From: Phoenix dactylifera
Taxonomy: Eukaryota; Streptophyta; Magnoliopsida; Arecales; Arecaceae
Assembly: GCF_009389715.1 (NCBI RefSeq)
Contig: NW_024068208.1
Location: forward strand, 124,001-188,000
Direction of reading: 5' to 3'
DNA length: 64,000 nucleotides
Position 1 is the stretch's first letter; each line of letters begins with the position of its first letter. The notes under the pieces are model-generated. The model saw nothing but the letters and a program-made list of their open reading frames with translations, was not told the DNA's origin and did not search any database. Both the position numbers and the translations under genes were made by a program. This document shows, in pieces, positions 9,850-61,800 of the stretch.

Positions 9850-10519
9850 AAATCTTTAGTTGGCACCTTCATGAGGTCCATGGCATGGAATCCATGCTCC
9901 ATATATGGGCTTGGGCAGCTGGGGTAATAAAGCAAAGGGGAAGTCGGCTGGGAATGGAATCCGTGCTCCATCGACATACATGTTACTATGAATGGATATA
10001 TTACAAGTTGAAATAAAATTATGGCAATATATAAGCCCATATGAATGCCAACTCATTCACTTATTCAACCATTGGATATAGCAAAGATCGTATATGGTTG
10101 TCTGGTTCGTATGCATGCATGTGTTTTGTTTAGAAAAAGGAGCAATGGGATGGATGCTTATGATGCCAAGGACAAATTTGTGTGGGATAAAATCCGCAGA
10201 CATGTATTTATTGACAAATTATAGTATAGGAACGGAGGTGTATGTTCTATGCAAAGATTTTGTTCTAGATCTAAACATCCAGTGACAACGATGATATATT
10301 GAAGTACTAGTCACTTACAAAGATTTCTCGAGCAAAAAGTGTGCAGGCTCTAGCACTAGATCCAATCTCAAATTTAGAACATGGATGACAAAAATAATGA
10401 AATTTGTCTAGATTCCAAATTTTATTGAAAAAAACCTGTAATCTCTAATTCCTATAACAATTCAAGCATTGTTTGTACAGTCTCCATTAGTGGTAAGCAT
10501 GGTGCTCCTATCTTTGCTC
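9850..10519. other. Gene-free spacer with a short direct repeat
   Basis: No gene is seen. An 18-base segment, ATGGAATCC(A/G)TGCTCCAT, occurs at 9885-9902 and again at 9954-9971. The rest is AT-rich. Confidence 0.6.
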
Positions 10520-12466
10520 GAGCTAAAAAAGAATTCTTGCAATTTTAAGGCTAATCCTCTCTTGTTTTGAACTTACTTCTGGATTGTCTATCAATTACAA
10601 AAAAGAGCTCAATATAGCCTATTAGCCTAGACTGTAACTTGGCATATGATTGTGTAAAGTAGCTTCACTGCTCTTTTGTTCTTATTCCATTTTAGTATCT
10701 TGGTTCATCACTCTATCTCCGGGGGCCTAAGAAGAGAGATTGGCTATCACTTTTGCGGCGAATTGAAGTTAGATTAGCGATATGAAAGGGTAAATATCAC
10801 TCCTCTGGGGGAAGATTAATTCTAGCTAATTTTGTCGTCACCGTCCTTCCCTTCTATTACACATCCATCTTTAAATTGTCTGTTTGGGTTGTCAAAAGAA
10901 GACAGATATAGAAGATCCTTCCTATGAAGTGATGATAAGAATGGTAAAGGAGGAGGGGGGTTTAGGTTTCAAGAACATTAGTCAGCTCAATCAGTCAGTA
11001 CTCGCCAAATGGAGATGGAGGTATCTTACAAATGATCTAGGCATTTGGGAAAGACAGGTGCATTTTGCTTATAATAAAAAAGTGAAGCTATCTATGAATT
11101 GGAGGCCAAACAAAAAATGTTCCAATCTATGAGAGATGTAGTTAATACTCTACCCGTATTATGGAATGGAGCAAAATATCAGATTTGCAACGGTCAAGAA
11201 ACACTTTTTTGGAAAAATTGTTGGATTTCTAATGCTCCTCTGCAAACCCTCTTCCCTAAGGTCTATGCAATCAATGAGAAAAAGAATGGATGGTGGCTGA
11301 ATTTTTCAACTCAAGCACTTTGGAATGGAAATTTAACAAACCTAGGTGACCCACAACGAATATTCAAACTGAATTTAATAAATTACTAACTCTTCTTGCT
11401 CATGTTTCTCTTAACTAGGATTGGATAGCAAGAATTCCTTCTCAATCATCTGTCTACCAATTCATCAATATGAGAGGCATTAAATACAAGTTCACCGATG
11501 ACCTTTGGAATCTTTATGCACCACTTAAGGTTAGACGATTGCTTGGCTCTCGGTGTTCTGCATCCTCAGTCCTCTTTTGAAGATATTTATTTCATATGGT
11601 AAAAGAGGTCTTTTTCTAAATCGGCCCACCCTATTATCCTCTTGCTCTTCGCTGATATAACTTGGATATGCTAAAAGGAATGGAATGCTAGAATCTTTCT
11701 CAAGAAGTACTCTTCAATCATAGTCATGGCTTTGAAGGGCCTTAGCTTCTTTAACGATTGGTTTTCCTTGTGCAACCAGAAGTAGCTAATTGACTTAGAA
11801 AAAATCTGGATAAGGACAAAGAATATACTATCACTGTTGAATGATGACTATAAGAAGCAGACTCTCTATCAAAAACCTGTTTGTTGAAAAATCAAACCAA
11901 TGCTCACTTGCAAAGATGTAATTGTTAGAAGCCACAAACTAGTCTCGTTCTTTAAATATTTCAGATTACAACCAGCATGGAAGTTATCTTTCCTTTGTTT
12001 TATTTTTCAGAACCAAACTGTTTTCAGCAAGTCTGACCTTCAGGGTGACCTCCTTTGGTAGCAGAACATGTTGTCTTAATCAGGCTATAAAAATTGTTCT
12101 GTTCAGATCATTTCCAAAGCTTTTATGAGCTCCAGCCCCTCAAAGTCTCTTGGGAAAGCTTCAAACAATATTCATATTGGAAACCAGCTGGGAGAGGATG
12201 CCCTGCTCAAAGGCCATTAGCACACTTATGTTTAGCTTTATTGACCAAAGTCATCTACCTAATGACACCTCAAGCTTCCTCCTCTTTTTTTTTGTTTTGT
12301 TTTGCGGGTCAAGTATATTACTTTATTTGCTAAAATTGGATTTTTTTTTATTGGACGGAAATTTTAAATTGGGGAAGATATAGATGCTGTGCTGTAACAT
12401 TTGCAAATCCTTTCCTTCTTTCTATAATTATGTAAATAGCTTTTTTCTCTTTAACAAAAAAAGAAT
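10520..12466 (+). mobile_element. Decayed L1-type LINE, 5'-truncated, with A-rich tail
   Basis: Remnants of a plant non-LTR retrotransposon ORF2, spread over all three frames. A segment near 10555-10610 reads ELTSGLSINYKK, and one near 10690-10870 resembles the thumb region (YLGSSLYLRGPKK, then GGRLILANFVVTVLPFYY). From 10884 come EEGGLGFKNISQLNQSVLAK and ICNGQETLFWKNCWI, then zf-RVT-like remnants (about 11420-11540) and further 3' sequence. It ends at a short A tract near 12455-12466. Many stops and frameshifts interrupt it, so it is old. It is more AT-rich than, and clearly different from, the LINE at 45756. Confidence 0.82.
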
Positions 12467-16200: not shown

Positions 16201-19200
16201 TTGGCTTTGAGTGGAAGCAGGCTAAACAAATCATGAAGATATTTAAAAGTTTCATATGATTATCAGCTAATGCAACCAAGGTTCCTGAAATGAAAGAATG
16301 TGATTATTGTTGGAGGTCCAGCAAGGGTGGATAGGAATTTGGTCTCTTGTATATGCAGCATGTTGAAGCCTTGGTTTCCAGCTTGTTTCTAGATAAATTC
16401 CTAATATCTGTTTGCGAGTGTAATAGATGGTTGTCCTAGGAAAAAATACATGTCTGGACCTTTTCTAAATAGAAACAGTGTTGATATGAATATATATATC
16501 TAGAAGATGCAATATCTCTATATATGATACAAAAGGCTTTGTTGTCCAGATGCTGTCTGGATTCAGAGGCTCTCAAATTCTTTGTTCTTGGTTTCAAGGT
16601 TTTCTGGAATTCCAGTTTGTTAAGGAAACTAAACGGCCCTGATCCAAGTAGGCTGACATGCCTGCAACCAAATAAAGTGAAAATATTTTCCCCCAAACCC
16701 AGCAGATCTTGTCCATAGCATGTGCATCTATTATAGAAAGAGTAAAATCTATCTGTGCATCTGACATCTTCAGATTAAATGCTGGATGACAATGCCTACT
16801 CTTTTTTCTCTTTTTATAGTAAATGTGAAAACCACCATGTTATATAGGGAACTATATTTAGAGAACTAGGAAGCTTTTCTATTTTGTTGAGATCAATATT
16901 ACTAATTTTGTTGTATATATGTTTTTAGCAGATATACTTTTGAAAAGTCATATTACAAATATCATTTTCATAGGAGATGGGTACCAGCCTTCATGAAGAA
17001 TTTCCCAAGTATTTATGGTCTCTTATTTAGACAAGCAGGACTTACAGCAAATCTCTGTCTATATGCATGTAAATTTGCAAATGCTAATGATGGTTTTGTC
17101 ATTGTAGGGTTTATCCTTTTCAGGGCTTCCAGTCCCGAGGCTATATAGAAGGAACAAACTACAGGGATCATAAGCTACCAAGAAAGCTTCCAGAAGATAA
17201 CGAGTTGCATTCCCAATCATGGAGAAATTATATTATTGTATGCTGACTTCAGAGTACCAAAGTTCCCCATTTACATGTGATAATTTGATGCATTAGTAGT
17301 TTGGAAAAGTCTATCTTTTCATGTCCTCTGAACTCATATTAAGAAGACGTATGTTATAAACTTTACAGTCTAAGTTTTGAATTATGTCTCATGGTTGAAC
17401 AAATATTGGATTTCTTGCAGCCCACAGCTGTACTAGTGATTGCTGGAGCAGGCCTACTTATTCACTACAATGATGAGAAACGAGCAATCCCAAAAGGTGC
17501 CTTCCTTAGAATCTGCAGCATGGTTGATGCGCTAAAATTATTTTGTCTCGTTGGTTACTTATTACATTGTCAAATATTGTAACTTGATCAATCCAGTCCC
17601 TTATATGCACTTATCAATATAAAATAATCCCAGATACACATACATATTGTGAATGCTTTATAAATTTTCATGGTGACTTTTGGAGACCAACCACCCCCCC
17701 CCCCCAACCCGCCCGAAAAATCCAGGGGCTTGGCAGGGGAAAAAAGGAAAAAGAAAACACTTCAACTATAAATAGGAGACTTAGGTGCAAATATTTTTCT
17801 GGACCAATCTCCAAAACAATCATTAAAATACCCTGGAAAATGAAGCCCAATTTATATTGCAATTATGCAAAGATGTCTAAACTAAGTGCAAACTTTAAAT
17901 GCTTCAAACTCTCCTCAATCTGACGGTCCATCGTGTTTTTAGCCTTATTAGGATGTATTAGGTTGTCTTAGATTGCCCATTCTGCTATTTATTGATTTAT
18001 TTACTTACATATTTATTTATTTTTAGTGGTTGTGACTGGGGGCATGGCATCATGATTGTTGTTTAATATGATCCCTTGTGACTGTGATGTCATCACTTGA
18101 TCTTAGGCTGCATTATTGCACGAGGAGCATATGCATTGGTCTTTTTGAGAATTGTCTTGTTGAAGTAGTTTGTTTAGATCTCATTTAGTGAAATCAGTAT
18201 TTTGCCAACAATGGAAGAAGCAATCTACAACTGTCAGCCTTACCATCTTTTAATGCCTACTAATTGAATAATAGGCTGGTGGCAGCTTCAGTTAAAAGTA
18301 TACTTTGACCTCTGGAATCTTCATACTAAAGAAAATATATGTTTTTCAATGCTATGTCTGTCTGTCTGGAAGATGATTATCAAATTTGCTAAAAACTTAT
18401 GGATCTTCCCTGTGCCAAGATTTTGTTATCATGCATTTAATAATAAAAATGTTTCCTATGACGTTTCAGGATGGTAACCATATTCATCTGATTTTGTGAT
18501 TTTTAAATTTATAAACTGGCTATAACAAGTTTGGCAAATCAGGCATATTGGTGATGTTCGTACATTTCTATTCAGTAATTTTGTCCTAGAATTCCTCTTA
18601 TCATCTCTATTTGTGTATTGTTTGTGCATCTTTGTAATTCTAAATACATGTCTACGTTGCCAGTCTTAAGAAACTTCTCTTTTTGCTAGGTGATCTTTAA
18701 CCTGTCATCTGACATCCTTTCATATATATTTTACAGGATCACATCAAAGTACAAACTCTGATGGGAGTAAAGTCAACAGACCTGCAATTGGAGGCCCATT
18801 TAGGCTGTTTGATACAGAAAAAAATTTGGTAACTGAGTCAAACCTTCAGGGAAATTGGACACTCATGTACTTTGGGTACACTTCTTCCCCTGATGTTGGA
18901 CCAGAAGAAGTTAAAAAGATGGCCGAAGTCATCCAGATATTAGGTGGAGCATCTTCTGCCATTCTCAATTGTCTTAAAAACTCTTGGTACTTAAAAACAT
19001 GAGAAGATGATCTGTATGATTGATGTGTATTAGCCTTTTTTGGAATTGGGGCTGCAAGCGGATTGGATTGACCTGCTTCCATTCTGAAACAGATCCAACA
19101 ATAATCTGTCCCAATCTGAACTGAAGTTTTTTAGGCTTGGAATTGAAAATTATGACCCACTTCAAATATGGACTGGATTTGAATCACTAAGCCTTCAATC

Positions 19201-20524
19201 TGTATATGAACTTATCTGAAGCTAACCAGCAATAGTACACTATATACTTTAGAACCCCCCTTAAATGTAAGAAATTAATTTTCCTTTAGTACATAAAGTT
19301 AATGTATTAGTCGTTATTTGTCATGTAAATTACAATTTATATGTGATTACTGATCAAACTTTATGGTGAGTAGGCTGTTGAAACTCTACATGTTGCTTAT
19401 TATTATTTTATAGGCAATCAATTGATACACGTTTATAATGATTTGCACTTGAATTATTTTGACCTGATTTGACTTGAGAAACCAGGTGGATTGATAAAAT
19501 AAATATTAAATCCGATCTGATTTAACCCAAATGGAAACGAATTAGGCTTGGTTCAATTATTTAACTTGATTCAAATATGGGTTGGATTTGGTGTGTGCTG
19601 ATACTGGATCCATTTGTACCTGCTTGCAGTGGTAGTTGGAGCTAAAAGTTTTTGTGCTGGATTTTGCTTCAAATGCATCGACCCATTATTTTTGTCTTTT
19701 TGAGAAACCCTAAATGCCATAATATCAGCATAACATGAAAAACAAAAAGGATATGCAATTTTTACTTCAGATGTCTTATTAATCTTTATAAAAAGAAACA
19801 AAAAAAAGATGGTTTTTGTTGCTTATGGAGGAATGATAAATGTATTCTAAATTTAGGACCAATAAGGGGTGTTTTTAATTTTTCATGATTGGCATTCGTT
19901 GAGCCGTGCCTTCTTGTGTTATCTCCTTCCATTTTGTGGATATTTTCTCTTGTAACATAGATGATGGTTAATTAGTTACCTGACTGCACCTTCAGAGTCT
20001 GAACACAACTTCAAGATCACTCCTATTTTTGTCACCATTGACCCTCAGCGTGATTCCCCTGCTCAACTTAGGGCATACCTTGGAGGTCAGTTATTCTAGT
20101 CTTAACTGCTTAATATTTTCTTCAATCGATTGATTCTCATTATGTCTCTGTACTGAAGATTTTGAAGTTCTTGTCACTTTGTGGTTGCAGAATTTGATTC
20201 AAGAATAATTGGATTAACAGGCCCTATTGCGGCTGTAAGACAGATGGCACAGGAGTACCGCATTTACTTCAAAAAAGTTGATGAAGAAGGCCAAGATTAT
20301 CTTGTGGAATGTTCACATAACATGTAGTGTGCTCTGTATTGCAGAAATTTGTTTAAAAAATAACAGATGCTAAAATCGATGCTTAACTGTTATAATTTAA
20401 TGTATATATTGGCAGGTACCTGTTAGATCCAAACATGGAAATTTTGAGATGTTTTGGAGTGGAATATGATGCTTTGCAGTTGTCTAATGCGATAATGATG
20501 GAGATGAAGAAGGCATCAAAGTGA
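13264..20524 (+). CDS. HCC2: SCO1-family protein lacking the copper-binding cysteines, HCC2 type
   Basis: Seven exons: 13264-13340, 17108-17237, 17421-17496, 18737-18943, 19996-20085, 20191-20323, 20416-20524. All junctions are GT-AG and in phase, giving 273 residues. Residues 1-26 are Arg/Ser-rich and look like a mitochondrial presequence. TAVLVIAGAGLLIHY (about 71-85) is the single membrane segment, followed by a thioredoxin-fold SCO1/SenC domain (about 112-262) with VTIDPQRDSP. SCO proteins pass copper to cytochrome c oxidase through a CxxxC motif; here the matching stretch is GYTSSPDVGPEE (141-152), with Ser145 and Gly149 in place of both Cys. This is the known state of plant HCC2, which is linked to redox and stress roles rather than copper delivery. 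An in-frame upstream ATG at 13033 would add 77 residues; 13264 was chosen because it gives the family length. Confidence 0.9.
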
Positions 20525-21992
20525 CCAACCTTCTATGTACCATTTCTTCCTCTGATTTTTTCTAAGGTGAATTTCTCTTTTGATGTCATTGCTAGCATGT
20601 ATTTGCTTTATTGTATTTTGACACTGAATTGTTCTATGTTTTTCTATGCTATTATAGAGGGTTATGTGTTTGTTGTTTCAGGTGATTCTCAAGAAAGTTT
20701 GAAGGCATAGATTGAATGATAGAGCTCAAGAAAAGTTTTCAACCATTCTGCAGTTAAAAATATGGTTCGGGAAAAAAGAAAAAAAAGCTAGCGACTTTTC
20801 TTCTGAATAAAATTACAGGTGAAATGGCTTTGTAATTTCATGGAAATTTTGTCTTTTCACGACAATTAGTACAAATTTCTAATTCAAGTTATGAAGCTAC
20901 GCAGAACCCATTTGTCTATCTTTGATGATGTTGTGTTTTGTCATCCGCCCTAATAAACATTCTTTCAATTTGGTTGACTTCATCATACTGGATGCATCTT
21001 GTAATTCTTTCCATGTAAAATGGCTAGTGAGCCACATCATCAATTGTTTCCAACCTATAAGCAGGCCTTTAGATCAGTTCAAAATCTCAGGAAGGTCACA
21101 TGCTTGATCTTTCTCCCAGAATCATGACTCTGAATGCTCCAAGAGCCAGTTTCATTTCCTGTAATAACAATTCGTGGTCTACAAAATTCAGCAAACTTGC
21201 ATTATTTTTATATTATGTGTCTTCCTGGGAGACTGATCCTTTTAGAACCTTGCCATATGCCCTGCTGCTCTGTATAACTTACAACCCATCCTCACCCCAG
21301 TTGCCTTCCATTGTTGTTGTCAGAGCTTTCCATCATATGTGCATAATCTGTAATGTGAGGTCCACATGATGGCAAAGTTGTTGCTTCTCATTATTAGGAC
21401 TCAAGGTCACATTATTTGTTATGATGAACTTTTACTTTTTCTTTTTTTCTTTTCTTTTTGTTTTTGCCATTTCCTCTCCAATTCCTTCATATCCCGTGTG
21501 TTGATATTTGCAAGCTCCTCAAGATCTTTGCTTGCCGACCGCGAGCAATATTTCAGATGCCAGTGTTACTTTCCTTCTATTATGTCAAACAAGTTGTTCC
21601 AATCCTCCCTGATATCTCCAAGTTCTGTTAATGGACAGCTTTGTCTGATCAAATAAGCTTGTTGGTTTTGGGATATTTGCCTGTCTCTTGCTTTCAATTT
21701 GTGAAATAAAGGAAGAACTAATAGCTACAATATGTTCTTATACTTAGCTCTGAATGCTAGTTTTCTTGTAACATCATCTTGGATTAGATGGTGCTATAAA
21801 CTCTTCATCCAATGCAATGACATTTGTGAATCTCGAGGACTTCCTTAACAGAACAACATGGCAGGAGGCGATCGGTGTCATTATACCTGTTTCTGATGGT
21901 CCTGTTGTTTGGATGGCTGTGATTGACTGAACTGCTGCTTGCTGTTCGTGGGAAAACAGCAAGTCGCCAACCTGATATGGTGGGAAAACGGC
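20525..21992. other. 3' flank of the HCC2-type gene and gene-free spacer
   Basis: An AATAAAATTACA signal near 20806 is a plausible polyadenylation site for the SCO gene. The rest holds only short, unsupported open frames. No repeat family was recognised before the hAT target duplication at 21993. Confidence 0.5.
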
Positions 21993-22000
21993 AGGGTGGG
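21993..22000. repeat. Left 8-bp target-site duplication of the hAT element
   Basis: AGGGTGGG lies immediately left of the terminal inverted repeat and is identical to 23215-23222. Eight bases is the duplication length made by hAT transposases. Confidence 0.85.
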
Positions 22001-22186
22001 TAGGGCTGGAAGTGGGCCGGGCCGGGCCGGGCCATACCCCTACCCGAGCCCGGCCCGAAATTATTTTTCGGGCTTCGGGCCGGGCCGAGGCCCGAACAGT
22101 TTTACAAAAACTCAGCCCGAGCCCGGCCCGAGCCCGGCTCGAGCCCGGCCCGAGCCCGATTGGGCCAGCCTGATCACGAGCCCGGC

Positions 22187-22925
22187 CAGAGATGTTCGCG
22201 TCCGGAGCAAGCTCCCGAAGCCACAAATCTCTGTGCACCAACATGAAGGCGTGGATGCGATCTGATCATTCCCATGTAGGCCGGACTGCGCCCTCACCTC
22301 TCGGCAGAGGAGCCGAGCTCCAGCTCATGCTCGGTGTCATCGGCGCCGGCGCGCCTCTCGTCTTGTTCCCCATCTAAACCCATAAATTCGCCCTCAGTCA
22401 CCACCTCAAGGAGGATCCGATGGTAGGTCTTCTTCCTTTACTTAAAGGCATAAAGCCGCTGTTCTAATTTTTATCTACTTCCAGCAACTCAAATGGTAAA
22501 GAGGGGCAATCCCTGACTCCCATTCACATAAAAAAAAAAGAAAAAAAACTTTATTTCTTATTCTTCTTCTCTCTCTTTTTCTTGTTTTCCCCCCCGAATA
22601 AATGGCAGGAAGCATCAATGGCAGAATACATAATACAACAATACATCGCGACGTCAGGCGGCGAGCAAGCATTAAACTCGGTGAGTAGTATGTACACCAT
22701 GGGGAAGGTAAGGATGACGGCGACGGAATTCCGAGCAGGCAATGGCAATAACGCCAGCCATGCCAACAAGAAGGCGAGCAAGGGTGGTGGTGGAGGGGAG
22801 ATGGGAGGGTTCGTGCTATGGCAGAAGAAGCCGGACTTGTGGTGTCTTGAACTGGTGGTGGCCGGTTGCAAGATCAGCGCTGGGAGTGACAGCAAGGTGG
22901 CATGGAGGCAGACAGCATGGCTTCG
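22187..22925 (+). pseudogene. Captured DUF620 gene fragment, two exons and one intron
   Basis: Exon a (about 22187-22422) encodes a match to the N-terminal part of the plant DUF620 family: EMF, TNMKAWMRSD and LGVIGAGAPLVLFP, then after one in-frame TAA (22375-22377) KFALSHHLKEDPM. A GTAGGT donor follows at 22423. A pyrimidine-rich intron ends GGCAG at 22608, and exon b resumes in phase with EASMAEYIIQQYIATSGGE, MYTMGKVRM, GGFVLWQKKPDLWCLELVV and GSDSKVAWRQT. Similarity to the family fades near 22925, after which unrelated DNA leads into the right MITE block. Keeping the intron shows that genomic DNA, not mRNA, was captured. The function of DUF620 proteins is not established. Confidence 0.82.
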
Positions 22926-23019
22926 CCTCTGTGCCTCTGCAAATCCCTCGGGCAAGTTGGCAACTGGGTTTAGCCGCGATTCGGCAGACTGCAGACACAA
23001 CTGGGTTTAGCCACGATAC

Positions 23020-23214
23020 GGGCTGGAAGTGGGCTCGGGCTTGGACGGGCCCGAGCTGGGCCAATGAAATACCCGAGCCCGGCCCGAAATAGAAATGGTC
23101 TTAATCATTCAGCCCGAGCCCGGCCCGAAATGCATTGAGCCTAGCCCATAGCCCGGCCCGCGGGCGGCCCGACCCGATGGGCTTCGGGCCGGCCCGAGCC
23201 CACTTCCAGCCCTA
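23020..23214. repeat. Internal MITE-like block forming the right end of the hAT element
   Basis: GGGCTGGAAGTGGGC at 23020-23034 repeats the TIR core in the same orientation as the left end of the large element, and the block closes with the inverted copy at 23200-23214. It therefore has the form of a complete 195-bp MITE. Its own left flank shows no 8-base match to 23215-23222, so it did not insert independently in its present form. Confidence 0.7.
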
Positions 23215-23222
23215 AGGGTGGG
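23215..23222. repeat. Right 8-bp target-site duplication of the hAT element
   Basis: AGGGTGGG, identical to 21993-22000, directly follows the right terminal inverted repeat. Confidence 0.85.
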
Positions 23223-24044
23223 TGGGATTCGGCTATGATCAGAGGCCAGCGTTGGATTACGTGGGCCGGGCTCCCTCCTGTTGCTATTCCCTGTTCCACC
23301 GCTCCCCACCCAACTGAACCTTGGACCGGACGAGGTCGGACTCCGTACCCGTTGTGTTGACTTCTCTCAAAACCGGGCCCTATTTTTGTTTTCTTTTCTT
23401 TGTCTCATACTTCTCTTTGGGGATTACAAGATCAAAGGCTTGTATAAACAAACCACACCTGACCCAGAATGAGAAACAAATCGAGAAATATTATCATCAC
23501 CAAGTATAAATTGCAAGGGCTAGCATCTACTATTAAATTGAGATCAAGGTTGAACTTGGGTTAGAGTGATTTGAATATAATGGCATCCAACCCATTGTTA
23601 GGTCTAGTTTAGCCAATCATACCTAATTTGGGCTTCACTTGGATTAAAAAATGTCGACTTGAGATCTAGTGAAGCTGGTTTAGGTTGAAGGATTAGAACC
23701 CAACCTAACCCACCCTAAACTTGACCCAACTCAACCTAATCTATGTTCTTCCAGAGCCAACCCGGCAAAGCGTGACCTAAACTAACCCAATCCAAATTGC
23801 TTTCTGGTTAAAATTTTCCAATAGTGCCGGCACTTGGACTCCTGTTTTGTCGCCAAGCTGAATGTCGGATACAATTGTGTTAGGATTGGATGGTTTGTTC
23901 ATTGGTTGGACTTTGGTTGGCAATTAAGCTGGATCCAATTCCAATCCATCCAATTTGTGCATTTAGCTTGAATTAGCCTATTCCAATCCAGGGATTTAAA
24001 AAGGATAACAGATGGCCTCAGCCAAATTCCAGCTGGGTTGGTTT
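23223..24044. other. Gene-free spacer, low-complexity CCAACC/GGTTGG-rich DNA
   Basis: No gene is seen. 23550-23990 is rich in CCAACCTAACCC-like and TTGGGTT-like words on both strands, as in decayed MITE ends, but no clear termini were found. Confidence 0.4.
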
Positions 24045-24074
24045 ACGTGAGAAGCACCACTCCTACGTGACGTC
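24045..24074 (+). promoter_or_regulatory. ACGT-core motifs upstream of the TTL-type gene
   Basis: TTTACGTGAGA (ACGTG at 24045) and CTACGTGACGTC (24063-24074) give two ACGTG cores plus an overlapping TGACGTC. These are bZIP-type (ABRE-like) binding words, lying 30-60 bases upstream of a TATA box. TTL proteins are known in abscisic-acid and osmotic-stress responses, so the placement is sensible, but binding is inferred from motifs only. Confidence 0.45.
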
Positions 24075-24103
24075 TGCACGCGGCCGCACCACTTTTATCG
24101 CTG

Positions 24104-24112
24104 TATAAAATA
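24104..24112 (+). promoter_or_regulatory. TATA box, probable TTL-type gene promoter
   Basis: TATAAAATA in a GC-rich to AT-rich transition, about 690 bases before the start codon at 24800. It would place transcription start near 24135 and a long CT-rich 5'UTR after it. Confidence 0.45.
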
Positions 24113-24799
24113 GCACCAAAAAAAAAAAAAACCATCTCTTTTCAAATTAAAAAGTTCTTTTCTAACGGTCCAAAATACAAAAATCCAAATATAGCTAATA
24201 AAAAACACCACCGCCAACTTTTTTTTCCAATTTCACCAGAGATCCACATTCCACCGGCTTCCGGATTTCGCTCCCCACTAGCTATTGCCACCCCAAAACA
24301 GATCTCCAAATCTTAAAATATCACACAAAAAGGCTAAGATACAGCCTTGTTCTTCCGTTCTTCTAATCTGAAATTACTGTTTTCTTTTTTTTTGTGTGTG
24401 TGTGTTAAAATACGGTAAAAATGATCAAAAGGAAGGCAAAAAGGAAGCTTGGCTTCCTGGAGACTTTTCTGAGGTAGATCTCCCAGTTCCAAGTTTCCTA
24501 TGGTAGCACCTTTTTTTCCTTTTTTTTTTTTTTTTTTTTTCTTGCATGCATGTTCTATTCTTCTTCTTATCCAAGCAATCCCAAGTCCTCTTTTTCCCCT
24601 TTCCGCCACCTTTTTTTTCTCTATTATATTGTTGTTCTTATGCTTCCTAGACTTCTCTCCCACTATGTTTTCAGCTCTCAAACCATGACAACCCCACAGG
24701 AATTATGAATTCCCACCAAATTTCCAATCGCATTCACTTTTAAATTCCCCCACCCTTTGCCAAAAAACAAGGCCCGATTCCCACCTCCCTCTACTCTGC

Positions 24800-27700
24800 A
24801 TGGCTATCAGAGCCATGGACGATGCGAAGAAGCCATCGGGGTGCGGCGTGATGGTGTTCTACGGCGACATGTTCCGCCGCCGTGGCTTCTGGCACCGTCG
24901 GTCAGCCTCGACGAGCTCGGTGCCCCAGCGATCCCCAGAACACAGAATTGCGAAGCTGCCATCCTCCAACGGACGGCCTCAGCAGCCTGCATCCGATGAC
25001 AAAGCCATGGTGCTACCAGCAAATTTATCTCAGCCGCCTGCCACCAAGCCTGCAAGCAGCTCCATGCCCGCTACTCCCAGTCCACGGAAGGCTGCTGCTT
25101 CCCGGAGACAGCCGGAGTCGAACAAGGCATCGACGTCGGTTCATTCGAGCAATGGCCTGGCGGCAGAGCTTGACAGCATGATCTATGACCACCGGCGAGC
25201 TAAGGGGAGCGGTAACTTGGTCCGGGTCTCCTCCGGCAATGCGATGGTCTATGGGAACTTGGGCAACATCAGGGGGAATCAGAATTCGACCAATTCTCGA
25301 AACCGGGATGTGTTTGATTACCTCCCGAAGACTGCCAAGGAGTCAAGATTGAATGCCACTTGGAGGAACGATTTCAGTTACCCTGGGACTAGTGGAGTGA
25401 TGGGCAATATAATGAAGAACCCGGCAAAAGAACCAGTAGAGTCCCAACCAGAGCTGTGCCGGGCTCTTTCGAAGAGATTAGATCCGGAGGAGTTGAAGGA
25501 AATGGGCAATGAGGAGTACAAGAAGGGGAGGTTTGCCGAGGCATTGGCTCTGTATCATCGGGCAATTGTCATGAATCCAGAGGTGGCTTCATACTGGAGC
25601 AACAAGGCGGCGGCGCTCATGGGTTTGGGCCGGCTTCTCGAGGCAGTTGGCGAGTGCAAAGAAGCTGTAAGGATTGAACCTTCATATTGCAGAGCGCATC
25701 ACCGGTTGGGTACTCTTTATCTCAGGTAATTGCCAGAGATCGAAGCCTAACCCTTTGAGAACATTCAATAGATCGAAACTGGGTAAATTAGGGTCGGTAC
25801 GACGAATATTTTGATCGAATATTTTGGTTTTCCTTTTTTGTGTGTGATGAGCTATTTTGATAACGACGCTCTATAGTTTATAATGTTTCATGAACTAGAA
25901 TGCCTCTATTTGTTTGGTTTTATAATTCTGAGATGTTGTTCATCTAAATTGCTTCCTGTTCATTCTTCTGGCTTGGAAACATTTTTTCTTACTTGTGGCC
26001 TGTAATTGCTGAATTCTAAAAGATACAATTAGGGCTAACAATTTATAACGGACATTTTTTTCTCATCTACTTATTTGAGTTTACATTTTTTCTTTTTCAG
26101 AACAATGAGTTCATGAGTGCTATTAGTAAGAAAGTCCCACTAATGAAGTAAAGTTCAACTTGTATGTCATGTTGTCTTCTTAAACATCTGAGTACTAATT
26201 TCTGTAACTTGACCATAGGCATCTCTGCATAAATTAGTAAATTTTCGGCAATAGAGCTACTCTTAATCACCTTATTGTGATACATAACATTAAATCGACT
26301 CTGAGGTCTGTAATCTTATTATCCAGTCGTGGTTTTATGTGATTTTTTAGTTCTGAAATGTAGTGTAGCTAAATCTATTTTTAGTCATCGTTCTTCTGGC
26401 TTAGGGGCATTTTCCCTTCATTTGGCGTCTGTTTTCTTGAGTATGTAAAAGTTGCAATATGAAGTATCAAATAATAATATAGAACTTTTGACTTGTTCTT
26501 CAATATACTGGTTTGAGTTTGTGTTTAGCAAAGATCTCTACTGATTTCTTATGATTGGCTTATATTCTAAGTGATCTTCTTCCATGTGGAGTACTAAACT
26601 CAAAGGAAGGGTGGCATCTTTCCTTATAATTTACTTCTTTCATAGCCTTATTTAAACAAAACTTGATATTTCTGCACATATTTCACAGACTGGGAGAAGC
26701 TGAGAAGGCAATTCACCATTACAAGCTATCACGAAAGGAAACCAGCTCTAATGACTTCTCACAAGTGCATGCTCTCCAGACCCATTTGGCCAAGTGTAAT
26801 GAAGCACGTAAGCAAAAGGATTGGCTCACTGTGTTAAAGGAATCACAGGCTGCTGTCTCTGCTGGTGCCGATTCTGCACCACAGGTCTTACATCACAATA
26901 ACCTTTCAGTTTACATGGTGGCAGAAATTATACCTTATCTTGTTTCATGTATTATCTTTGCCTGAAAGTATATATGCCCAAGTTTCCTTATCTATTTCCT
27001 TGCCTAAATTGATTCATTATTTCAAAATGTTAGTTTTTACTTAACATTACTATGTTATATGTTTTTGCCACACCGCATATCGTTGCCCCGTTGAGATGCA
27101 ATCAGGTTCCATTTGAAGATCTAACTGCAATCAAGATTTGAGTAGAACTTACAGTGAGGAACGTCAGTTGAACGCTGTCTAAAAGATTTCCTGTGTCATT
27201 TTGTTTAATATCTTCATAAGAAGAGTATTAACTGTGGTTGGGTAGAGATAATTTAAGTCTATACATTTTTTCTTGTTCAACTTCATCTTACATGCCCATT
27301 GTGTTATGCTCTTAAGGTCTTTGCATTGCAAGAGGAGGCACTTCTGAAGCTCCTGAGGCATGACGACGCAGATTCAGTGTTAAATGGTGCACCCAAATTT
27401 GACATTGAAGCATCCACCAAGTTCTATGGTGCCGCTAGGAATGCATACATCCTCATAATCCGAGCACAGGTTGATATGGCTTTGGGAAGGTTAGTTTCAG
27501 AAGCTCATCATATAGAAACCAAACGACATACTTTGAAATGCATCCCTGATTAATTAGCACATATTAACGGATACTCCTGTTTGATTTGGATGAAAGGTTT
27601 GAGGATGCAGTCGTAGTGGCTCGAAGGGCGTCTGAACTTGACCCCAGCAACCGGGAGATAGGCGTCGTGGTCCGGAGAACCCATGCAGTGGCATCTGCCA

Positions 27701-55418: not shown

Positions 55419-57073
55419 TTAGATATATTGTATGCTGAAAATTAAAAATATGACTATACATACCTGATTCTTGAAGTTGTCTTTCACATGACGGAAACAA
55501 TATGAGTGGTAACTACCAGAAAAGTACTTCGGCACTGATTTAATAATTCCTTGATGTCTATCCGTCATAAATGTTATTTGCTTACTTCGCCACTCAATGC
55601 AACTATAAATTGCATCTTTCAAATTCCGACAAAACCAGTCCCAATTGTCATCAATCTCCGTATCGACCACACCATAAGCAATAGGAAACATATCGTCGTT
55701 TGCATCTTTGGAAGTCGCGCCAAGTATTACTCCTCCATCCTTATGCTTTATAAATGTTCCATCCATAAAAATCAGAGGTCTACAACCTCTTATGAAACCC
55801 ACTACTGAAGCATGAAATGAAATGAATAGGCGTTTGAATCGACCTTCAATAGTTTCATACTCTGCTATGCTGTCGGGGTTGGTCTCAAGAATGGCATCGC
55901 AATACCAGTATATCCGGTCATAAGATTTTGATCTGTGACCATAAAGGTCCTTCATAGCCACCTCCTTCCCATGCCAAGCTTGATGATACGGCAATTCAAC
56001 ACTATATTCTCGATGAATATCCTTTACGATATCAATCGGCCTATATAACGGCATATCTTAAAGTTTTTCTTTAACTATGTTTGAAACCCAACGTTTCGAA
56101 GTCTTAGGATGTGACCGGACTTGCAACCCTCCGCCACATGTATGCTGACTATTCATTATTTTAATTGCAAAACTTTCTTGATTCCCAAGTCGGGAAGCAT
56201 GGATATGCCATTCACATCCTTCGTATGCATATTCCACGGTCAGTCGCAGGCGATCGTTCTTCACAAATACAAAATCTCTACAATTTGCAATGCAAAAGTT
56301 GCGAATCGTGTCGCGAAGAGTTTCTACATCATTGAACTTCTGACCAACACCCTCAATAGAGGTTTTCCAAGCATCCAAAGAATTTCTTTGACTAGGTTGC
56401 TCTTCGATTGCAGCTCTTGTTTTTTCAACAACTTGACCGAAATTACTTAAGCTACCCTTTGAAAAAAATTTTGATCGGCGGCTACACTCAACATTTTGGG
56501 ATGGGCCACTATCCCTACAATAAGTTTAACAAAAATTCAGCATACTAACTATTAAATTAGTGATTAACATGAAAAAACTAACAAGTGAAATATGCAATAC
56601 AACAAAGAGTTAAACTAAGATTACCAAAATAGAAACAGATGCTATTAACTTCTGCATTACCTCATATCAATTACGACATCGGCTGCTTCGATCAAGCATG
56701 GAATATGACTAACAACCAACTCGATCACCAGCGCATTTAAGTTGACGTGTATTTGATGCATATTCCGAACATCCTTATCGCCCAGGAGCGAAACAAGCAT
56801 TCTAGACTTGTTTGGAATAAAATATTTAACTTCTACCATTGTATCAGACAGATGTCTCCACCTTTTCACTATTTTCTTGTAAATTTGATCGAGCTTTGTG
56901 TCCTCGGAGATGGAAATAATAAGAGCTTTACCACCATAAGAACAAATAGCCATGAAAACAGGGCTACTTGTTTTTTTTTGAAGCCATGACAATGGAAAAA
57001 AGAAAAAAGAGGAAATGATTGAAGTTCCGAATGCTATTACAACAATGAAGCGAAGGGAATGCTGCCACAGCAA
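55419..57073 (-). pseudogene. MuDR-type transposase, broken
   Basis: Three parts in order on the minus strand. 57073-56657 is a PB1-like N-terminal domain (GGKALIISISEDTKLDQIY), usual in plant MULEs. 56378-56058 is the MuDR DNA-binding domain with the conserved WHIHASR-type motif (CEWHIHASRLGN) and CGGGLQVRSHPKTSKRWV. 56054-55419 is the MULE catalytic domain with FMDGTFIKHKDGGVILGA, the PIAYGVVDTEIDDNWDWF segment and TDRHQGI (first two DDE acidic positions visible). One in-frame TAA at 56060-56058 separates the last two parts. A possible splice donor follows NFKNQ, but no next exon with the SWIM finger is found. This is a plain DNA transposon gene, inactive. Confidence 0.88.
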
Positions 57074-57375
57074 CTATTTTTCGAATATGATATCAGCAAT
57101 GAGAGTGACACGTTTAGGTCTCCAAACAGTATATAAGCAATGGCAGTCAAACAACAGGATAATCCAGCTAAAATAGGGTTTTTGTTCAATTACAGTCGGG
57201 AAATAGAGGAGAAAAGAGGGACAGCAACTATTTTTCGAATATGATATCAGCAATGGAAGTCACACGTTTATGTCTCTAAACAGTATATGAGCAATGGCAG
57301 ACACACAACAAGATAAGCCAGCTAAAACAGGGTTTTCGTTCAATAACATTCGGGAAACAGAGGAGAACAGAGGGT
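57068..57375. repeat. Tandem duplication, two 154-bp units
   Basis: CAGCAACTATTTTTCGAATA begins at 57068 and again at 57222. The following 150 bases match closely, with scattered differences, through the CAGGGTTTTCGTTCAAT region. It lies upstream of the MULE transposase, inside the element. Confidence 0.8.
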
Positions 57376-58162: not shown

Positions 58163-58371
58163 GCTATCCTACGCATAAGCTCATAGAGGTTATCCCATGC
58201 GTAAGCTCGTGGACGCTATCATATGCGTAAGCCACATGGAAGCTATGCAATGCGTAAGCCCGTGGAGGTTATCCCACACATAAGCTCAAGAAAACTATCA
58301 CACGCATAAGCTCGTGGACGCTATCCCACGGATAAGTCTATGGATGCTATCCCACGCATAAGCTTGTGGAG
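58163..58371. repeat. 26-bp minisatellite, about 8 units
   Basis: Units follow GCTATCCCACGCATAAGCTC then GTGGAG with variation. They begin near 58163, 58189, 58215, 58242, 58268, 58295, 58320 and 58346. Some units are 25 or 27 bases long, and divergence between units is moderate. Confidence 0.85.
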
Positions 58372-58599
58372 GCTACTTTATAATGAGATTAGTTCTAACC
58401 ATATTTCGTCCGTATAATTTATATGTTTCTCTTATCAAATCAGTTTTCACTTAGATAGCTCATGGAAACACCCTCACTTCATTCTGCCGATCCCCCCACC
58501 GCACTGCTTCCAACTTCAAAGATGCCCTCTGCCGCGCATTTGCGGTGCACTGGTCTGTGATCCAGCTCATGCATGCTTGTTCACTACTACCTCCTCTTC
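58372..58599. other. Gene-free spacer
   Basis: No feature recognised. Confidence 0.4.
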
Positions 58600-59849: not shown

Positions 59850-61113
59850 AATCAATAAGTCAGAAAGCAAGCCAAGTCAGGACAGATTGCATGTTTCTAC
59901 TACCACCTTGCATGTTTCTACCACCACCTTTGCACACCCTTGGAGCACCACCTCGGCATCCACATCAACATCAGCTGGCCACCTCACCACCACTCCAACC
60001 AATGGAAGCACACCAACCAGGATGAAGTCAAGCATAAGGAGCAGACCACATCATGCCATCTCATCAAAGGAACCAATGCAACATGTTATGTGCCACCTAT
60101 TGGGACGCCACCTCAACACCACATCAGCGATCATCTCAACCAAGAGGATAATGCCAAATGAAAGAGTTAAAATCAAAAGAACCAATCACCATGTCACCTC
60201 ATACAAGTTGACACGTCACCCAAATTCAAAGTCCAAGAGGTCGGCCACAATTTAAATGCAAGAAAATTTCAAATGGGAGCCAACAACTTTTCAAATCCCC
60301 CCTTAAAGCCGGCCAACTTTCTTTCCTTTTCTCTAGCAACCAAGCCTTCAAATGTGGAGCGCCATTCATTATGTGTTTAAATTTCAAATCATGAGGAAAG
60401 TCTATAAATACCTTCTCATGACATCTTGTAATTTCAGTTGATGAATGAATAAAAAAAAGAGCTTCTTTCTTCCTTAGCAATCTTGCTTTGTCACCTTAAA
60501 AGAAGGTTGGGCGTGAGGCCCTTGTTCCAAGTTGGGCGTGAGGCCCTAAAGCCACTTCCACATCCACCGCAACCCTATCTCCTCTCGCCTCCCTTTTCTT
60601 TTGTGATTCCATTCCTCTCTCACGCCAAACCTCTAATCTCTGTTTCTTTGCAGGTCCTTAAAGTACTCCATGTCATTGGGTCTATTATCCTTCCAAACCA
60701 ATAGCAAGGGGGCCCTGTTGCAACGGAAGATGAAGCTTGGTTATCCAATCATCAACCCTCGAGAGTGAGATCAAGGATCCTCCTCTAGAAGAATTCTAGA
60801 AGTTCAATGTTTGGTAAGCCTCAACTCTAGGTCTGATTTATTGAAGAAAGCGTCCTAATCTAGTGGTTTCTCAACCACAACGGTCCATTACTCTAAGTCC
60901 TAAATAAATTAGTATATACGGGTAACTAGTTCTGAAATTACTATGCTCCTCTAGAAGAATTCTAGAAGTTCAATGTTTGGTAAGCCTCAACTCTAGGTCT
61001 GATTTATTGAAGAAAGCGTCCTAATCTAGTGGTTTCTCAACCACAACGGTCCATTACTCTAAATCCTAAATGAATTAGTATATGCGGGTAACTAGTTCTG
61101 AAATTACTATGCT
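59850..61113 (+). repeat. Probable LTR of the Ty3/gypsy fossil
   Basis: After the chromodomain-like tail comes non-coding DNA with a CTATAAATA TATA box (60402-60410) and an AATAAA signal about 40 bases on (60447), spaced as in the U3-R part of an LTR. Two short direct repeats of GTTGGGCGTGAGGCCC occur at about 60506 and 60532. The ends were not fixed. The 3' part overlaps a 166-bp tandem duplication. Confidence 0.4.
60782..61113. repeat. Tandem duplication, two 166-bp units, almost identical
   Basis: CCTCTAGAAGAATTCTAGAA starts both 60782 and 60948; each unit ends ACTATGCT. Only a few differences are seen between the units, so the duplication is recent relative to the surrounding decayed DNA. 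Confidence 0.9.
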
Positions 61114-61800
61114 CATGATAATGCTTTCTTAGCTTATATGTGACTGAATTTTCTGTTGCAATTAGACTAGTTAATCAACATAACTCACTGATAACCCTTA
61201 TGTTTAAATCCCTCACATTCATCCCACATCATTTTTTCTTTCTATTTTTTTTTCCCGGTGTTTTCAATGTTGATGGTTCCTAAGAGAATATAAACATAGT
61301 TTTAGAAGTAAGATTGTGTTTTGAAGTCTCTCAACCACAAACTCCAGCAAGACAGTCTCATATCTGGGGATATAAGGGAATACTAGGAAGAGAGAGACGA
61401 GATTGATTTGAACCCTAACCATTGCATTCATCAACCCAAAATACTTACCATTACTTACTGTTACCATCAACTGCTTGAGGGTGGTACAACTTCCAATATG
61501 AAAACATAACATTGATTATTTTTAAAGCCCTATATATGGTACACCAAAAAATAAAAAAAAACTATATATCTGATCGTGGAGAATTGATACAAATCAAGCA
61601 TTTCACTGAGTCCATACCTATGTTAACAAATTCTGTTCAATGGAAAAACATAGCGGCAGCAAGGACAAAACAATGCTTGTATCTAAATTATGCAGATGAT
61701 CTACCAATCCTTGTATCATGGAATTACAATAGCCTGCACCAAGATTCAAGTAATTCTCTCGCTAATAATATACATGCCAGGGCTCTTTATTTCTCCTCTG
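61114..61800. other. Spacer, probable 3' flank of the minus-strand zinc-ribbon gene
   Basis: No gene is seen. The last 100-200 bases should be the 3'UTR of the gene ending at 61801. Confidence 0.45.

Follow-up and report, generated by a model that had tools for sequence, protein, structure and literature searches.

A Pack-hAT element carrying a DUF620 gene fragment in date palm, apparently one of several captures by a single hAT family

Introduction

Capture of host gene DNA by hAT elements has already been published for maize, grapevine and frog. In maize, the excerpts of PMC3260210 used here describe Ds2-22, a Ds element containing exons 5-6 and the intron between them, copied from another chromosome. 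The same excerpts count two Ds2 and nine Ds-l4 elements with gene fragments, call these a rare feature of hATs, and put forward the idea of a repair error to account for such capture. In grapevine, Hatvine-6 is presented as a hAT family with common terminal inverted repeats (TIRs) and transposase, and with a variable remainder that matches genic exons and introns (PMC2528002, in part). Gisby and Catoni extended to hATs the tandem-insertion model that had been published for Pack-CACTA elements (PMC8903248, in part). Among animal Pack-TIRs, Pack-hAT-N8_XT is found in the western clawed frog, and template-switching models have been proposed for this group (PMC8277862, in part).

Here we analyse a 64-kb stretch of date palm DNA (hereafter the window, on contig C561). 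A preliminary description, made from the letters alone, had interpreted one segment of it as a hAT element that captured a DUF620 gene piece, and had regarded gene capture by hATs as much less often documented than capture by Pack-MULEs and Helitrons. Our analysis supports both the observation and the Pack-hAT interpretation for positions 22001-23214. The process itself is better documented than that description implied, and the element is a further example of it.

Results

We scanned the whole window for perfect inverted 10- or 15-mers lying 0.3-6 kb apart with identical outer 8-mers. Since exactly one pair of TIRs and target-site duplications (TSDs) was recovered, namely the ends of 22001-23214, and none of 20 block-shuffled windows (10-mers) gave any such pair, a chance arrangement was rejected. 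Running the scan on the reversed sequence is no control, since symmetry makes it give the same pair again. The element is 1,214 bp long. It starts with TAGGGCTGGAAGTGGGC, the left 17-bp TIR (22001-22017, + strand), and closes with the exact reverse complement, the right 17-bp TIR GCCCACTTCCAGCCCTA (23198-23214, - strand); identical 8-bp TSDs, AGGGTGGG, flank it at 21993-22000 and 23215-23222. Short TIRs of the TAGGG/CAGGG type characterise the hAT superfamily, and the element fits this type at both ends.

Internal to the TIRs lies a left subterminal region (22018-22187, +), common in whole or in part to sister and transposase-bearing elements, with 83-94% identity in the window element's pairs with them. 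The right subterminal region (22922-23197, +) contains an internal TIR-like copy, GGGCTGGAAGTGGGC (23020-23034, +), in opposite orientation to the right TIR; many sister elements have similar copies in their right end. The last ~195 bp are the part with most matches elsewhere in the genome. Since they form an inverted-repeat unit by themselves, a MITE nested at the right end was considered. This reading was rejected, because the same right-end arrangement occurs in many family members, transposase-bearing ones included.

The neighbouring genes are a SCO1/SenC-like gene on one side (Pfam piece at ~20184-20324, +) and a TPR gene on the other (~25487-25684, +); the insertion falls outside the Pfam-recognised coding parts in the flanks examined (18500-21990 and 23223-26700). 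Elsewhere in the window, tandem repeats occupy 60780-61114 (period 166, 98% matches), 57067-57374 (period 154, 89%) and 58163-58375 (period 26/79 bp).

Between the subterminal regions lie 734 bp of captured DUF620 gene DNA (22188-22921, +). Six-frame Pfam comparison of the element yielded DUF620 (PF04788) with an E value of 1.1e-26 over profile positions 1-82 of 243; the sole other match up to E 1 was B_solenoid_ydck (0.14), and no transposase family appeared within that limit. The probable donor, judged by sequence comparison, is a DUF620 gene on contig C3, where the domain occurs in two frames (profile pieces 1-90 and 87-243). This locus, C3:23716414-23717144 (- strand), matches element positions 188-921 only, at 94.9% over 740 aligned columns, and no element ends were found within about 4.4 kb of the match. 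A more distant DUF620 paralog is located on C13 (78-83%). Comparison with the donor divides the captured piece into part of one exon (22188-22422, +), whose frame in the donor extends further upstream than the captured edge, an intron (22423-22608, +), and part of the next exon (22609-22921, +), which holds the Pfam match. Because the piece runs from exon part to exon part with the intron included, it was taken from DNA. The preliminary description had thus read the perfect inverted ends, the identical flanking octamers, the missing transposase and the two exons with their intron as we find them; the edges of its DUF620 span, 22187-22925, had to be corrected, and the internal TIR-like copy at 23020-23034 had to be added.

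All three copies of the element (see below) carry TAA at 22375-22377 (+) in place of the donor's CAA, a change that closes the first captured exon. With this premature stop, a functional DUF620 protein is unlikely, and the sharing of the stop by all three copies makes passenger DNA the simplest reading; the captured piece is probably just that. For the same reason, the statement that the unit looks able to move coding DNA should be narrowed to gene fragments. We consider it improbable that the piece has been co-opted, whether as a transcript or small RNA acting on the donor DUF620 gene or as a new protein. It is true that the second exon's frame meets no stop up to 22921 and continues open into the right end, and that captured and donor DNA are about 95% alike; the stop codon shared by the three copies and the position between the SCO1-like and TPR genes, outside recognised coding parts, speak against such a role.

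Besides the window element, the 773-Mb genome contains full-length copies at C8:26119818-26121033 and C13:6513405-6514597, and three is a lower bound on copy number, as 40 of 474 first-look candidates were scored. These two copies have their own perfect 8-bp TSDs, ACTGTATT and GTTGGGTC respectively (window orientation), and the 1-kb flanks of the three copies show no mutual similarity. Over the whole element, the three differ from one another by 4 to 6 substitutions (p 0.0033-0.0050), compared with a donor-to-copy distance of 0.029-0.032. The C13 copy is 22 bp shorter than the C8 copy, near the left end.

We then joined the two window flanks with a single AGGGTGGG and searched the genome with the resulting sequence. 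Apart from the window's own two halves, one uninterrupted match was obtained, at C358:87836-88435, where the site reads GGCAGGGTGGGTGGGATT with one TSD only, the whole 1,214 bp and the other TSD being missing. The exact TIR is absent from 5.1 kb of C358 around this empty site. C358 agrees with the joined flanks at 99.6% (12 mismatches and 7 gap positions in 4,980 aligned columns), and ~10 kb upstream, the best second match of window 10000-12000 is also on C358, at 99% and in matching order and orientation. Given this near-identity and the collinear upstream match, C358 is most likely the other haplotype of the window region or a very recent duplicate; it could be a recent segmental duplicate instead of the other allele. 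Whichever it is, the insertion probably postdates the divergence of the two sequences, and because the near-identical C358 has the site empty, we regard the insertion as young and probably polymorphic. Measured from window position 12000, the empty site lies ~1.1 kb closer on C358, which may reflect a further structural difference.

With three copies, three TSDs and one empty site, the unit has transposed together with its cargo, and its ends, TSDs and empty site support cut-and-paste movement of the hAT kind. The stop codon in the first captured exon of all three copies would also be in keeping with a plain DUF620 pseudogene that arose by duplication, with inverted repeats forming or a MITE inserting close by and the gene piece itself never mobilised. 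Yet the copies share the same two boundaries within unrelated flanks and different 8-bp TSDs, and the empty site lacks the entire element plus one TSD. The empty site and the three TSDs therefore refute the pseudogene reading unless C358 is an artefact, and we attach practically no credence to it.

The TIR 17-mer occurs 297 times genome-wide (151 + 146), and the reversed pattern, as a control, 0 times. Hand-counting among the first 100 of the 297 places gave 31 inward-facing TIR pairs up to 7 kb, 29 of which were fetched. From TIR pairs and similarity, we delimited 38 elements, 32 of them short (548-1,636 bp) and 6 long (4,856-6,201 bp). Their TSDs are perfect in 34 of 38 and carry one mismatch in the other four, a figure favoured both by the choice of element pairs, made partly by best TSD match within a locus, and by leaving L024, L025 and L026, which have no matching-TSD pair, out of the element counts. 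The 38 TSD sequences are distinct, and the next 8 bp outside them differ at 4-8 positions in every element. L051 covers the same place as L019 and was therefore unused.

Genome-wide, 150 of 1,658 candidate matches to the hAT dimerisation domain were scored, and several sit between TIR pairs. An uninterrupted 648-aa transposase frame is present in three of the six long elements (L029, L030 and L033) and broken in the other three. It carries a BED finger, a hAT-like RNase-H domain and Dimer_Tnp_hAT, with E values of 4.3e-33 to 6.5e-34 for PF05699, 3.4e-29 to 4.7e-29 for PF14372 and 3.7e-10 to 8.2e-10 for PF02892. On sequence grounds, these three are candidate autonomous partners of the window element, and the shared ends suggest that it would be mobilised in trans by the family transposase. 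None of its interior (0%) is common to the six long elements. Its ends differ by 8-17% from those of three long elements (L029, L030 and L034, in the main end alignments), so its exact source element was not found. Among these same three, the transposase block is common at 98-99%, and much of the DNA between the block and the ends differs; this variable DNA may itself be captured.

In sum, we put the probability at roughly 95% that 22001-23214 is a Pack-hAT, a non-autonomous element with transposase-bearing family members elsewhere in the genome. The searches that the preliminary description had proposed turned up two more full copies with their own TSDs, same-ended elements with hAT transposase as possible partners, and the DUF620 donor on C3; the empty site with a single AGGGTGGG was likewise found, on another contig of the same genome instead of in a related species as suggested. 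Neither of the two observations that it had named as counter-evidence arose: the termini have many other genomic copies, and the C3 donor matches only the interior.

Grouped by their interiors, the 32 short elements form 22 clusters. Three of them (C4, L046 and C10) share >70% of their interior with a long element and look like deletion derivatives of long elements. Pfam comparison of 17 short interiors in six frames (102 translations) revealed the families PPR (on L036), IPK (L043), Xpo1 (L016) and RINGv (L048), and no transposase family; a weak CNNM match (0.0038) was not traced to a member element. The interiors of L035, L037, L042, L044 and L047 are 0-27% similar to long elements, with no Pfam family placed on them. 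We searched the genome with the interiors of seven of the 22 clusters (the window element, L015, L043, L045, L036, L016 and L021), and strong matches outside known elements were obtained for all seven. Where the whole element was compared with its donor (the window element, L015, L043, L045 and L036), the match stops short of both ends.

These captures differ in cargo and in how far the source can be traced. Six places match the whole L015 interior, three of them delimited; C8:3679088-3679784 (97%), which matches most of it and may be non-coding, is separated by ~2.3 kb from the Pfam domains of a 2OG-Fe(II) oxygenase gene. The IPK-bearing L043 has full-interior matches at four places, of which three were delimited, with a donor at C14:6876706-6877532 (98%) and a paralog on C39 (90%). 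The PPR piece of L036 has its donor at C34:903700-905133, and an L036-type copy on C254 has both TIRs and a perfect TSD. As the donor contains 428 bp more than the element, RNA-based capture of this piece was considered; it was rejected, since the missing 428 bp have no splice sites at their edges and resemble PPR coding DNA by eye, which makes deletion likelier. Different parts of the Xpo1-bearing L016 match C6:3848100-3848602 (93-96%) and C4:8430405-8430641 (99%), and further partial matches lie on C13, C52, C28, C458, C410 and C15, leaving its sources unsettled. The L021 interior matches C8:17352511-17353286 (93%), which is receptor-kinase-like by eye; Pfam gave no match for L021.

L045 is a two-gene element, in which a U-box gene piece is joined to a JmjN/JmjC gene piece from another contig. 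Its U-box part, which derives from upstream of the U-box itself, matches C10:5642292-5642747 (98%). The Jmj part matches C11:7052180-7052639 (96%), between the JmjN and JmjC domains, as well as the solved rice protein Os05g0196500 (E 0.00097). The element occurs at L045:741-2215 and L056:391-1803, each with its own TSD; this second copy, on C10, has a perfect one. Within the ~25-bp join in L045, short stretches of 11 and 15 bases match family subterminal sequence.

We scanned for element ends at the donors of the window element, L015, L043, L045 and L036, those of L016 and L021 being left out. Family ends were found in 0 of 7 loci, comprising six donors (L011, L052, L053, L054, L055 and L057) and the paralog L012, with flanks of ~4.4-4.9 kb for L011, L012 and L052 and ~0.35-0.5 kb for L053, L054, L055 and L057. 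For L052, the + strand alone was scanned for Pfam; one L055 frame without a Pfam match was compared with the PDB and nothing was found. At the capture junctions, inspection by eye, without statistics, indicates at most a few bases of possible microhomology.

In our weighing, acquisition of the gene piece by template switching during repair or replication is the somewhat more probable route. While a family element that had been broken or excised was being copied, synthesis would have jumped to the DUF620 gene as template and then returned, with 187 bp of the left end and 293 bp of the right end remaining; the hybrid element would then have been moved in trans by the family transposase, and the window copy would have entered its site recently. 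Template switching fits because the intron is present, the donors have no element ends, and one element contains pieces from two donors. The same Pack-hAT could have arisen from two neighbouring family insertions that enclosed the gene piece and moved as one unit, a route that PMC8903248, in the part cited, argues for all DNA superfamilies including hAT. In its favour, 23020-23214 within the right end is by itself an almost complete inverted-repeat unit, which is what a fused second element would look like, and the family-like matches in the L045 join point in the same direction. Against this stand the seven loci free of family ends, albeit with short flanks for four, and the internal TIR-like copy, which belongs to the regular right end of many members, among them long elements, and therefore marks no fusion here. 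The clean donors would also fit tandem insertion if an element-free haplotype survived. We judge this second route rather unlikely and retain template switching as the preferred one.

Discussion

The window element seems to be young and belongs to a hAT family with several gene captures. It represents an unusually complete case within a single genome, with a cargo element, sister copies, a probable donor, a likely partner transposase and an empty site. With several recent captures and identifiable donors in one family, donor haplotypes and junctions could be compared to test how genes come to be acquired by cut-and-paste elements. Likewise, where haplotypes differ in an insertion, the effect of captured exons on neighbouring genes can be tested in a natural setting. 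Only tentatively, we suggest that this family captures genes habitually: its non-autonomous copies would for the most part have been refilled with pieces of host genes drawn from many genomic locations, the family would join pieces of two genes in one mobile unit, and it would still be moving, with cargo insertions segregating between haplotypes.

Our literature survey covered titles and the starts of abstracts, with subscription journals mostly outside it; no date palm Pack-hAT or DUF620 capture was among the matches listed, which is weak evidence. Compared with the published systems, as far as the excerpts of each source go, the frog Pack-hAT-N8_XT is likewise a multi-copy hAT with captured DNA, whereas animal Pack-TIRs belong to another kind of host and are mostly single-copy (PMC8277862). 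The maize Pack-hATs are also non-autonomous TIR elements with gene fragments, hAT included, but they have other ends in another species, and their authors favour tandem insertion (PMC8903248). Hatvine-6 resembles our family in its shared ends and variable, partly genic remaining sequence; its elements combine transposase with the variable region, while the 17 short interiors analysed here have no transposase family (PMC2528002). The closest parallel is maize Ds2-22, which is nearly the same in design, with Ds2 ends of ~200 bp around a captured exon-intron-exon piece; capture is there called a rare feature of hATs, whereas the date palm family has several captures, multi-copy sets and one two-gene element among 38 (PMC3260210).
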